NCBI GenBank assembly: GCA_032622095.1
Contig: CP136065.1
Location: 23,238,134 to 23,302,133, forward strand
DNA: 64,000 nucleotides
Reading direction: 5' to 3'
Origin: Siphonodentalium dalli
Lineage: Eukaryota > Mollusca > Scaphopoda > Gadilida > Siphonodentaliidae
The notes beneath the pieces were generated by a model. That model was not told the origin of the DNA, did not search any database, and worked only from the letters and a program-made list of their open reading frames with translations. Below are positions 22,001 to 28,000 of this stretch, piece by piece. The stretch's first letter is position 1; each line of letters opens with the position of its first letter. Position numbers and translations under genes: made by a program.

Positions 22001-25000
22001 GTCAAACATATGACAATAACATACTGTTTATGCGATATTTCTTATTTGTATACGGACTAAGTCTGTCTACATTTTAATATTCTTTCTGTTTGTGGCAGTT
22101 TTTGACCGGTGGAAATATTTTCACAGCATACCCACCGCCAAGGCCTCCCGTACCTTTAAACCCTAGTATATGCCAGGAATTAGCATTGAAAGAAATGCAA
22201 AAAAACAAGCCTATTTTATAATTATTATATATTGTTAGGCAAATACATTGCATGAACAATAGCAATCCAATTTACCAACTATGTTAAAGGCAGGACAAAT
22301 TAAAAATGAGATATACAAATGTGCTATAGCCTATACATCTAAGTTGCAAAAATCACTCTTCACATGAAAAATAATCTACAAACCCTGATTTGTTCAAGAA
22401 CTTTTCTTATCTGTGGTTCGAAACCCATGTCAAGCATTCGATCTGCCTCATCCAGGACTAAATAGGTGCATCTTCGCAGATTGGTATTTCCACTCTCCAA
22501 GAAATCAATCAATCTTCCAGGAGTCGCAATACATATCTCAGCACCTGTGTAAAACAATTGAATCCTTTACCCAACAGAACGGCCCTGTGCCAATGCATTC
22601 TCTTATATATGCGAGTCGACCATAGAATGCATTGGGTTAACACATATTAAAAATTCTAAAATTGTCAAAGAATGTAGAAAAATATTATAAAAATTGTTAA
22701 AAAATGTAAGAAAAAATTCTAAAATTGTTAAAGAATGTAAGAAAAATGGTAAAAAGCGTTTTTTTTAGGCCAATGCATTCTCTTATATATGCGAGTCGAC
22801 CATAGAATGCATTGGGTTAACACATATTAAAAATGATAAAATTGTCAAAGAATGTAGAAAAATATTATAAAAATTGTTAAAAAATGTAAGAAAAAATTCT
22901 AAAATTGTTAAAGAATGTAAGAAAAAATGGTAAAAAGCGTTTTTTTAGGCCAATGCATTCTCTTATATATGCGAGGCGACCTATGGTCGACTCGCATATA
23001 TAAGAGAATGCATTGGCACAGGGCATAACTGTAACCAACCCAATGTGGTCAATGAACCGGTTCCAATGATATCCATATTTGTATGGTGTTATTGAGACAG
23101 ACCAAAGATATTTTAGGCTGTTGAAGCTTTATTTGGGCGTTTTTGGCCAGTTTGTTGGGTAAAGGGTTAATGTGAAAGTAAATGTACAAAGATACCCTGA
23201 CAAAAAGGAAAAAAAAAAAAAAATCAAAATTGAAAGCTTGGTTGGATAGTATTGAAGCTATTCTTGATGTCTCTCATACCTGACCAATCCATCTTAAAAT
23301 GAGTATATGTATAAAGTCCAGATAAAGGGACCAATTGTCATTAATATAAAATGATTTATTAGCTCATTCCATAGCTTTCGGCCATAGGCCTTCGTCAGTA
23401 GAAAACGATTAACACAGTAAAGTCTACATGTTGATCTGACCAATCAAATTTATAGAAAATCGCGTCACCATCGGTGATATATTGCCGCCGTTTAATACCA
23501 AGAATGACCAAGATTGTATTATTGATTAATGAGAATTTATTGAATAATTACGAATGAGTTGATGTCAGATCAACATGTAGACTTTACTGTGTTAATCGTT
23601 TTCTACTGACGAAGGCCTATGGCCGAAAGCTATGGAATGAGCTAATAAATCATCTTGAAATGTTAAGTAGGAACGACACTTACCTCTCTCAAGGTCTCTC
23701 ATACCTGACCAATCCATCTTAAAATGTTAAGTAGGAACGACACTTACCTCTCTCAAGGTCTCTCATACCTGATAATCCATCTTAAAATGTTAAGTAGCAA
23801 CGACACTTACCTCTCTCAAGGTCTCTCATACCTGACCAATCCATCTTAAAATGTTAAGTAGCAACGACACTTACCTCTCTCAAGGTCTCTCATACCTGAC
23901 CAATCTATCTTAAAATGTTAAGTAGGAACGACACTTACCTCTCTCAATGTCTCTCATACCTGACCAAACCATCTTAAAATGTTAAGTAGCAACGACACTT
24001 ACCTCTCTCAAGGTCTCTCATACCTGACCAATCCATCTTAAAATGTTAAGTAGGAACGACACTTACCTCTCTCAAGGTCTCTCATACCTGATCAATCCAT
24101 CTTAAAATGTTAAGTAGGAACGACACTTACCTCTCTCAAGGTCTCTCATACATGATCAATCCATCTTAAAATGTTAAGTAGCAACGACACTTACCTCTCT
24201 CAAGGTCTCTCATACCTGACCAATCCATCTTAAAATGTTAAGTAGCAACGACACTTACCTCTCTCAAGGTCTCTCATACCTGACCAATCCATCTTAAAAT
24301 GTTAAGTAGGAACGACACTTACCTCTCTCAAGGTCTCTCATACCTGACCAATCCATCTTAAAATGTTAAGTAGGAACGACACTTACCTCTCTCAAGGTCT
24401 CTCATACCTGACCAATCCATCTTAAAATGTTAAGTAGCAACGACACTTACCTCTCTCAAGGTCTCTCATACCTGATCAATCCATCTTAAAATGTTAAGTA
24501 GCAACGACACTTACCTCTCTCAAGGTCTCTCATACCTGATCAATCCATCTTAAAATGTTAAGTAGCAACGACACTTACCTCTCTCAAGGTCTCTCATACC
24601 TGACCAATCCATCTTAAAATATTAAGTAGCAACGACACTTACCTCTCTCAAGGTCTCTCATACCTGACCAATCCATCTTAAAATATTAAGTAGCAACGAC
24701 ACTTACCTCTCTCAAGGTCTCTCATACCTGACCAATCCATCTTGAAATGTTAAGTAGGAACGACACTTACCTCTCTCAAGGTCTCTCATACCTGACCAAT
24801 CCATCTTAAAATGTTAAGTAGCAACGACACTTACCTCTCTCAAGGTCTCTCATACCTGACCAATCCATCTTGAAATGTTAAGTAGGAACGACACTTACCT
24901 CTCTCAAGGTCTCTCATACCTGACCAATCCATCTTAAAATGTTAAGTAGGAACGACACTTACCTCTCTCAAGGTCTCTCATACCTGACCAATCCATCTTA

Positions 25001-28000
25001 AAATGTTAAGTAGCAACGACACTTACCTCTCTCAAGGTCTCTCATACCTGATCAATCCATCTTAAAATGTTAAGTAGCAACGACACTTACCTCTCTCAAG
25101 GTCTCTCATACCCGACCAATCCATCTTAAAATGTTAAGTAGGAACGACACTTACCTCTCTCAAGGTCTCTCATACCCGACCAATCCATCTTAAAATGTTA
25201 AGTAGCAACGACACTTACCTCTCTCAAGGTCTCTCATACCTGACCAATCCATCTTAAAATGTTAAGTAGGAACGACACTTACCTCTCTCAAGGTCTCTCA
25301 TACCCGACCAATCCATCTTAAAATGTTAAGTAGGAACGACACTTACCTCTCTCAAGGTCTCTCATACCCGACCAATCCATCTTAAAATGTTAAGTAGGAA
25401 CGACACTTACCTCTCTCAAGGTCTCTCATACCCGACCAATCCATCTTAAAATGTTAAGTAGGAACGACACTTACCTCTCTCAAGGTCTCTCATACCTGAC
25501 CAATCCATCTTAAAATGTTAAGTAGGAACGACACTTACCTCTCTCAAGGTCTCTCATACCTGACCAATCCATCTTAAAATGTTAAGTAGGAACGACACTT
25601 ACCTCTCTCAAGGTCTCTCATACCTGATCAATCCATCTTAATATGTTAAGTAGCAACGACACTTACCTCTCTCAAGGTCTCTCATACCTGACCAATCCAT
25701 CTTAATATGTTAAGTAGCAACGACACTTACCTCTCTCAAGGTCTCTCATACCTGACCAATCCATCTTAATATGTTAAGTAGCAACGAGACTTACCTCTCT
25801 CAAGGTCTCTCATACCTGACCAATCCATCTTAAAATGTTAAGTAGGAACGACACTTACCTCTCTCAAGGTCTCTCATACCTGACCAATCCATCTTAAAAT
25901 GTTAAGTAGGAACGAGACTTACCTCTCTCAAGGTCTCTCATACCTGATCAATCCATCTTAAAATGTTAAGTAGCAACGACACTTACCTCTCTCAAGGTCT
26001 CTCATACCCGACCAATCCATCTTAAAATGTTAAGTAGCAACGACACTTACCTCTCTCAAGGTCTCTCATACCTGACCAATCCATCTTAATATGTTAAGTA
26101 GCAACGACACTTACCTCTCTCAAGGTCTCTCATACCAGACCAATCCATCTTAATATGTTAAGTAGCAACGAGACTTACCTCTCTCAAGGTCTCTCATACC
26201 TGACCAATCCATCTTAAAATGTTAAGTAGGAACGAGACTTACCTCTCTCAAGGTCTCTCATACCTGACCAATCCATCTTAAAATGTTAAGTAGGAACGAG
26301 ACTTACCTCTCTCAAGGTCTCTCATACCTGACCAATCCATCTTAAAATGTTAAGTAGGAACGAGACTTACCTCTCTCAAGGTCTCTCATACCTGATCAAT
26401 CCATCTTAAAATGTTAAGTAGCAACGACACTTACCTCTCTCAAGGTCTCTCATACCTGATCAATCCATCTTAAAATGTTAAGTAGCAACGACACTTACCT
26501 CTCTCAAGGTCTCTCATACCCGACCAATCCATCTTAAAATGTTAAGTAGGAACGACACTTACCTCTCTCAAGGTCTCTCATACCTGACCAATCCATCTTA
26601 AAATGTTAAGTAGGAGCGACACTTACCTCTCTCAAGGTCTCTCATACCTGACCAATCCATCTTAAAATGTTAAGTAGCAACGACACTTACCTCTCTCAAG
26701 GTCTCTCATACCTGACCAATCCATCTTAAAATGTTAAGTAGGAACGAGACTTACCTCTCTCAAGGTCTCTCATACCTGATCAATCCATCTTAAAATGTTA
26801 AGTAGGAGCAACACTTACCTCTCTCAAGGTCTCTCATACCTGATCAATCCATCTTAAAATGTTAAGTAGCAACGACACTTACCTCTCTCAAGGTCTCTCA
26901 TACCTGACCAATCCATCTTAAAATGTTAAGTAGCAACGACACTTACCTCTCTCAAGGTCTCTCATACCTGACCAATCCATCTTAAAATGTTAAGTAGCAA
27001 CGACACTTACCTCTCTCAAGGTCTCTCATACCTGACCAATCCATCTTAAAATGTTAACTAGGAACGAGACTTACCTCTCTCAAGGTCTCTCATACCTGAT
27101 CAATCCATCTTAAAATGTTAAGTAGGAGCGACACTTACCTCTCTCAAGGTCTCTCATACCTGACCAATCCATCTTAAAATGTTAAGTAGCAACGACACTT
27201 ACCTCTCTCAAGGTCTCTCATACCTGATCAATCCATCTTAAAATGTTAAGTAGCAACGACACTTACCTCTCTCAAGGTCTCTCATACCTGACCAATCCAT
27301 CTTAAAATGTTAAGTAGCAACGACACTTACCTCTCTCAAGGTCTCGAATCTGTGGCCTCCTGGATGCTCCCCCGTAAACGCAAACATTTCTAATGTTGGA
27401 ATGACTGTCGAATGCTGCGGCTACTTCCTTAACCTGCTGAGCCAGCTCGCGAGTTGGCACAAGTACTAAGCACTGAAAAACATTAATATAAAAGTAAATA
27501 AAAATTCTTCATCCTATATGTTATCTGTAAGTTTTATATATGAAAAATTAATTATATTGAATCTATGAATCCATTCGTTTGTAGTTTTTTCGATGGTCAA
27601 ATATATACAGCTTCAAAAGAGGCAGTTTTAGCAGGCTTTACTTATTGTCAACAGAGGCTTAGCCAGCAACCCGCCCATTCGTCATTTAGACAAGCAGTTG
27701 CAGATAAAAACAGCCCAATTCTATCTCAACAATGTTGGCAGAGAATGGGCACTGCAATTTGGATGTATATATTTAACAAGGAAAACATGGTAAATATGCT
27801 CCGGGGACCAGAGGCCCGCCGTTTAATACCAAGAATGACCAAGATTGTATTATTGATTAATGAGAATTTATTGAATAATTACGAGAACGAAATACATGTA
27901 AAATACAAACATAACAAATTATATAAAACATATATAGAACATGATTTGTGCAACTAGTCCGACTTTAGAAAGAAACTGTCTCGATTCTTGCCGATGTCGC

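Follow-up and report, generated by a model that had tools for sequence, protein, structure and literature searches.

A tandem array of 58 splice donors in a DDX5/DDX17-like helicase gene of Siphonodentalium dalli as a probable mirage-type minisatellite

The DNA analysed here, referred to as the window, is a stretch of 64,000 nucleotides from the scaphopod Siphonodentalium dalli (genome G000, contig C5, positions 23238134-23302133). Its minus strand carries a DDX5/DDX17-like DEAD-box helicase gene, and intron 5 of this gene holds a tandem array of 64-bp units in which the splice donor of exon 5 recurs 58 times. A preliminary description of the sequence had reported this array and described it well, and it is confirmed here as a real feature of the helicase gene. 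Coding blocks were placed by tblastn with a human DDX5 sequence as query, exon 5 being the fifth block from the 5′ end, and the best PDB sequence match of the 101-aa peptide of exons 5-6 was DDX17 (E 5.8e-49). The features of the locus, in window coordinates, are:

8511..49207, minus strand: span of the helicase coding blocks (tblastn)
49207-49043, 41782-41687, 39384-39262 and 35074-35009, minus strand: helicase coding blocks 5′ of exon 5 (tblastn)
27331..27472, minus strand: exon 5, 142 nt, PTRELA to RDLERG, with the upstream acceptor TTTTTCAG (tblastn and sequence)
27325..27333, minus strand: authentic donor GAG|GTAAGT, its GT beginning at 27330 (sequence)
22545..27330, minus strand: intron 5, 4,786 nt, about 77% array (boundaries read from the sequence)
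23651..27345, minus strand: probable mirage-type array with a 64-bp unit and 58 donors, 3,680 nt of it within intron 5 (Tandem Repeats Finder, TRF, and parsing)
23302..23650, no strand assigned: insert of about 350 bp with inverted ends, resembling a miniature inverted-repeat transposable element (MITE), which interrupts the last unit (by eye)
23269..23301, minus strand: 33-bp unit remnant, 100% identical, beyond the insert and followed by unique intron through GAGAC
22384..22544, minus strand: exon 6, LDEADRMLD ... EQIR, carrying the DEAD box (tblastn; boundaries by eye)
21232..21404, minus strand: exon 7 (tblastn; boundaries by eye)
17429-17313, 16829-16770, 14778-14713 and 8726-8511, minus strand: helicase coding blocks 3′ of exon 7 (tblastn)

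TRF gives the array a period of 64, 57.8 copies and 97% matches over 23651-27345. Exact parsing finds GAGAGAGGTAAGT 58 times on the minus strand; 56 of the units measure 64 bp, one measures 63 bp and the last is interrupted by the insert. Exon 5 and intron 5 meet as GACCTTGAGAGAG|GTAAGTGTCG, and every unit joins 15 nt derived from the exon to 49 nt derived from the intron, the second copy in the array repeating the final 15 nt of exon 5. The tandem unit spans the exon/intron boundary at exon 5, as it does in mirage minisatellites, and the presence of the last 15 exon nucleotides in the unit bears out the earlier view that the array is an amplified exon 5/intron 5 junction and not a random intronic satellite. 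The description of an authentic donor with 57 copies also holds: the donor GTs run from 27330 to 23683, one exon-proximal and 57 further at a spacing of 64 bp (63 bp once), and all 58 have GAGGTAAGT at positions −3 to +6, the next dinucleotide being GT in 50 and CT in 8. The extent given earlier needs amendment at one end, since the start at 27345 stands but the array ends at 23651 instead of 23682, with the 33-bp remnant in addition beyond the insert. The survival of this remnant there shows that repeat units were already present when the insert arrived. Each unit also has a second AG|GT, CAG|GTATGA, which is absent from the preliminary description; it is exact in 49 places, and its AG is lost in 9 of the 56 full units.

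The exon-proximal donor is a strong donor, and joining from it keeps the frame into exon 6. From every one of the 57 downstream donors the frame would read through the first unit to a TAA (GGT AAG ... TTT TAA), with the stop after 56 residues from the start of exon 5, 9 beyond its 47th (last whole) codon. The truncation precedes the DEAD box because that motif sits in exon 6, as had been predicted for any downstream choice. The 21-nt stretch between the two AG|GT sites of a unit keeps the frame and encodes MRDLERG.

The array unit matched only the helicase locus in a DNA search of the whole genome (2.23 Gb in 9 contigs, very common words skipped), and a dispersed satellite is thereby ruled out. 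The short sequence GAGGTAAGTGTCG occurs at 130 places in the genome, and among the 100 listed the sole other cluster is an array in a gene with a TSP1-domain exon, described below. A second copy of the helicase gene with matching coding blocks lies head to head with the first about 8 kb beyond the window (C5:23309957-23315757, L002). An intron of about 0.73 kb interrupts it at the matching position, following TTGAGAGAG, and has the donor GTAATT; the 64-bp array was not found in this intron, where the sole TRF result is an 18-bp repeat covering 57 bp.

The edges of the array suggest how it arose. One end of the unit is a GAGAC within the final 15 nt of the exon (context ATTCGAGACCTTG) and the other an intronic GAGAC, where unique intron resumes (GAGACATC), the unique sequence beyond the last remnant reading ATGAGAGACATC. 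Since the unit is the interval between two GAGAC words, the simplest history would be a tandem duplication at this 5-bp microhomology followed by unequal exchange. The 56 full units fall into 20 interleaved haplotypes, and pairs of units differ on average at 2.0 of 64 positions (1.67 between neighbours) with no clear increase with distance in the one allele available.

Several known systems resemble this array, and they are compared here from excerpts of the respective reports. In lancelets, tandem repeats termed mirages lie over exon/intron boundaries in Adh (Adh3) and globin (BflGb6/BflGb9) genes, reportedly with splicing undisturbed (PMC3087553), and a further report adds mirages in TnC, compares repeats in PGBD5 and describes the Adh and TnC mirages as producing no aberrant mRNAs (PMC3902484). 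As described in these excerpts, the lancelet mirages share with the helicase array a unit over the exon/intron boundary and similar copies within a cluster, and both 5′ and 3′ boundaries are affected; they differ in size, haplotypes of BflGb6 having 6 and 3 copies against 58, and the helicase array is known from its sequence alone. The class of splice-boundary minisatellites is already known, and the helicase array is very probably a member of it.

On these grounds it is very likely that the feature is a mirage-type minisatellite of which the exon-proximal donor is used and the remaining copies are mostly neutral baggage. A second copy would have been made by tandem duplication between the two GAGAC words, and unequal exchange or slippage would then have expanded and homogenised the array to 58 or more copies. 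General splicing rules and the reports from lancelets suggest that the nearest donor would pair with the acceptor of exon 5, so that the first copy would be used and the others would leave with intron 5. Where a later copy is occasionally chosen, the resulting mRNA would contain a premature stop and probably be degraded. The array as such would be mostly neutral baggage, and neutral expansion with preference for the exon-proximal site, which the preliminary description had kept as its null view, appears to us the better view.

Arrays of the same kind are found at other splice sites of this genome. The first motif search yielded an array located where a TSP1-domain exon ends (C3:286778730-286781546; Pfam 2.8e-10). 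TRF gives it 77 copies with a period of 35 bp, certain units being 6 bp longer, and it holds 38 exact AGGTAAGT. Beyond it, at least 19 further donor-array sites were found among the matches listed for three repeated-donor-motif patterns, a sample lying mostly on C1, and 18 of these were fetched, the site at C5:14.68M remaining outside this set. A junction was called, mostly by eye, where an acceptor-like site is followed by an open frame that ends at the donor, and in mirror image for acceptors. By this rule 11 of the 18 fetched AGGTAAGT arrays sit at apparent exon/intron junctions (L003, L006, L007, L008, L010, L011, L012, L013, L031, L032 and L033), the acceptor-like site being weak for L006 and L033. 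Six lie away from junctions (L004, L005, L009, L016, L030 and L034), and one, L035, was left uncalled because the fetched stretch ends within the repeat or was not read through. The fetched stretches contain from 3 to at least 194 exact AGGTAAGT. The largest count belongs to a 39-bp donor array at an apparent exon end on the plus strand (L032/L038, C5:23918573 onward), which continues past the fetched stretch. Another large array, with a 73-bp unit on the minus strand (L037/L011, C1:140561-148324), has 89 exact donors after an apparent exon (DAEIILWSPSGNHYIIINNMKIDAYDVE) that gave no Pfam match. A 26-bp repeat family bearing AGGTAAGT extends over about 78 kb (C1:231979802-232057384), and the fetched stretch L035 lies wholly within it.

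Acceptors are affected as well. Twenty arrays of the acceptor motif TTTTNCAGG, part of the acceptor-motif sites found, were fetched, and 11 are at apparent intron/exon junctions (L017, L019, L020, L021, L027, L028, L029, L042, L043, L044 and L045). Of the others, six are away from junctions (L018, L022, L023, L024, L026 and L041), two are doubtful (L025 and L039) and L040 was left uncalled for the same reason as L035. Since acceptor-motif arrays also sit at junctions, the process that forms the arrays is not confined to donors, and both donor and acceptor boundaries are affected in this genome, as in the mirages, by calls made mostly by eye. Matches above the Pfam cut-off indicate unrelated genes: USP47_C (L007, 6.2e-12), TSP_1 (L001), LEM (L012, 6.8e-9) and Ribosomal_L19 (L020). 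Matches below the cut-off were Noc2 (L031, 9.5e-7, just under), Acyltransf_C (L017), VGCC_alpha2 (L019), DSPc and Tc-R-P (L010), zf-met (L033), Zw10_N (L032) and DegQ (L008), and the exons of L003, L006, L013 and L027, like that of L011, gave no Pfam match. The gene of one junction array we take to be PTPDC1-like.

How many junction arrays are to be expected by chance was estimated with the reversed donor motif as control, which gave 9 single-locus arrays in 131 Mb of C1, counted by eye after dispersed families were dropped. This implies a density of about one short-period minisatellite per 16 kb and an estimated 0.2% chance of covering a given site. If 150,000-250,000 donors are assumed, 6-12% of them with AGGTAAGT, and a mean period of 35, random placement would yield by this rough estimate 2.3-7.8 donor junction arrays in the listed part of C1, where 5 were seen. 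As the number seen falls within the number expected, random birth suffices. The donor arrays tend to be longer than the acceptor arrays (11 versus 11), not significantly so (p = 0.075; p = 0.14 for short periods only), in a comparison in which several copy numbers were estimated from match rows and spans and that of the C5:23.9M array is a lower bound. Donor-specific birth of arrays is unsupported, acceptor-motif junction arrays being common too and the difference in length not significant.

Whether the copies are maintained by selection was judged from their variable positions. Over ten junction arrays, the helicase array included, 23 of 90 donor positions vary against 158 of 478 elsewhere, which is not a significantly lower variability (p = 0.18), and exon plus donor compared with intron lean towards more variation (odds ratio 1.34, p = 0.20). 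This test covered 2 units of the PTPDC1-like array and 45 of the C1:140k array, both of which were read in part. In the TSP1 array 6 of the 9 donor positions vary. In the helicase array none of the 9 positions of the donor 9-mer is variable, which is not significant (p = 0.19 two-sided, 0.09 one-sided). These tests suggest no general upkeep of donor copies.

Three observations nevertheless weigh against neutral baggage. In the helicase array itself 1 of 21 exon plus donor positions is variable against 13 of 43 others (p = 0.018 one-sided, 0.025 by Fisher's test), and this low variability could reflect selection on the copies; these p-values are nominal, the region having been chosen after the variable positions were known. 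Secondly, the genome-wide totals of the donor patterns exceed those of their reversed controls (1,937 versus 1,321, 2,772 versus 2,160 and 599 versus 87) and those of the acceptor patterns do not (4 versus 22, 227 versus 536 and 320 versus 867); there may be a donor-specific excess of arrays, as far as totals dominated by long arrays can indicate it. Thirdly, in human IFI6 (6-16) a splice-donor minisatellite likewise supplies many donors in one transcript, and two downstream repeat units are reported to be used as donors, with different isoforms (PMC4526556). The downstream donors of IFI6, as described there, give isoforms, however, and in the helicase gene productive downstream use was found for none of the copies, 57 of 57 giving a stop.

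A rival reading is a regulatory donor array, in which downstream donors compete with the first and the length of the array sets the share of premature-stop mRNA or holds U1 small nuclear ribonucleoprotein (U1 snRNP) on the pre-mRNA. That all 58 donors are intact and that each downstream use gives a stop would fit it, as would the nominally lower variability and the excess of donor-motif totals just mentioned, and yeast Dbp2, a homologue of DDX5, is reportedly controlled via a poorly spliced conserved intron (PMC4695336). The analogy covers the helicase family and control via an intron; in the yeast case control is described as coming from a conserved intron that is spliced out inefficiently, and no donor array is mentioned in the excerpt. 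The copy-number tuning or U1 snRNP sink put forward in the preliminary description finds no support, the donor positions of the ten arrays not being significantly conserved, those of TSP1 largely varying, arrays occurring at unrelated genes and at acceptors, the paralogue being without the 64-bp array and lancelet mirages reportedly splicing normally, and we regard a regulatory array as improbable. It could be extended to a rheostat for the splicing of this RNA helicase. The donor nearest the exon is at the same time the terminal unit of an array that homogenises, so the number of copies, together with the internal AG|GT sites, would determine how much of the helicase mRNA is truncated or carries a microexon; expression would then vary heritably and perhaps also somatically, and, by extrapolation, hundreds of genes in this genome would have copy-number-variable splice sites. 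This extension is quite improbable.

Splicing within the array would use GAG|GTAAGT and CAG|GTATGA, 43 and 21 nt apart, each as donor and acceptor, with stepwise removal or 21-nt in-frame microexons (MRDLERG). The stretch is in frame and there are 49 exact CAGGTATGA sites, and human UBC is reported to use tandem dual-specific AGGT sites (PMC10809524), where tandem AG|GT units can likewise be donor or acceptor. According to the excerpt, UBC units are coding and its introns are whole multiples of the unit, whereas the helicase array is almost wholly intronic and intron 5 is no such multiple (4,786/64 is not whole). With few pyrimidines before CAG by eye and its AG missing in 9 of 56 full units, use of CAG|GTATGA for a 43-nt intron or a 21-nt microexon is unlikely, and splicing within the array as a whole appears to us exceedingly improbable. 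A 43-nt intron would be very short. An assembly artefact, by which the copy number or the whole array would be wrong, has to be considered since tandem repeats are hard to assemble; against it speak the interleaving of 20 distinct haplotypes across the 56 full units, the insert close to one end, and edges that pass into clean exon on one side and clean intron on the other, which makes an artefact very improbable. A mirage-type minisatellite of mostly neutral copies remains the preferred reading.

Internal tandem repeats at exon-intron boundaries are also described in human segmental-duplication genes, where they can alter splicing and create new introns (PMC2812944); according to the excerpt they differ from the present case in varying between recent human paralogues and in having transcript evidence. 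Titles and abstract openings revealed no further literature reports of this structure. New here are how large this member is, how many arrays of its kind were sampled in a single genome, and a helicase gene with 58 equal donors as a test case. A single oddity becomes a countable class, with splice sites amplified at several unrelated genes of one genome. The class can serve as a natural experiment on the choice that the spliceosome makes among near-identical neighbouring donors, on the effect of copy number on mis-splicing and on how tandem duplications may give rise to new introns. It is also a warning for gene annotation, where such arrays can yield false exons and donors.

The window contains some further repeats. 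Another tandem array, with 32/23-bp units by TRF, lies at 36656-37644 between helicase coding blocks 3 and 4. Short repeated elements with inverted ends CCAATGCATTCTCTTATATATGCGAG occur at 20586-23020 and in L001, and by eye apparently form a MITE-like family. An open reading frame fragment at 27954-28160 presumably resembles, by eye, the DNA-binding part of a pogo/Tigger-like transposase.

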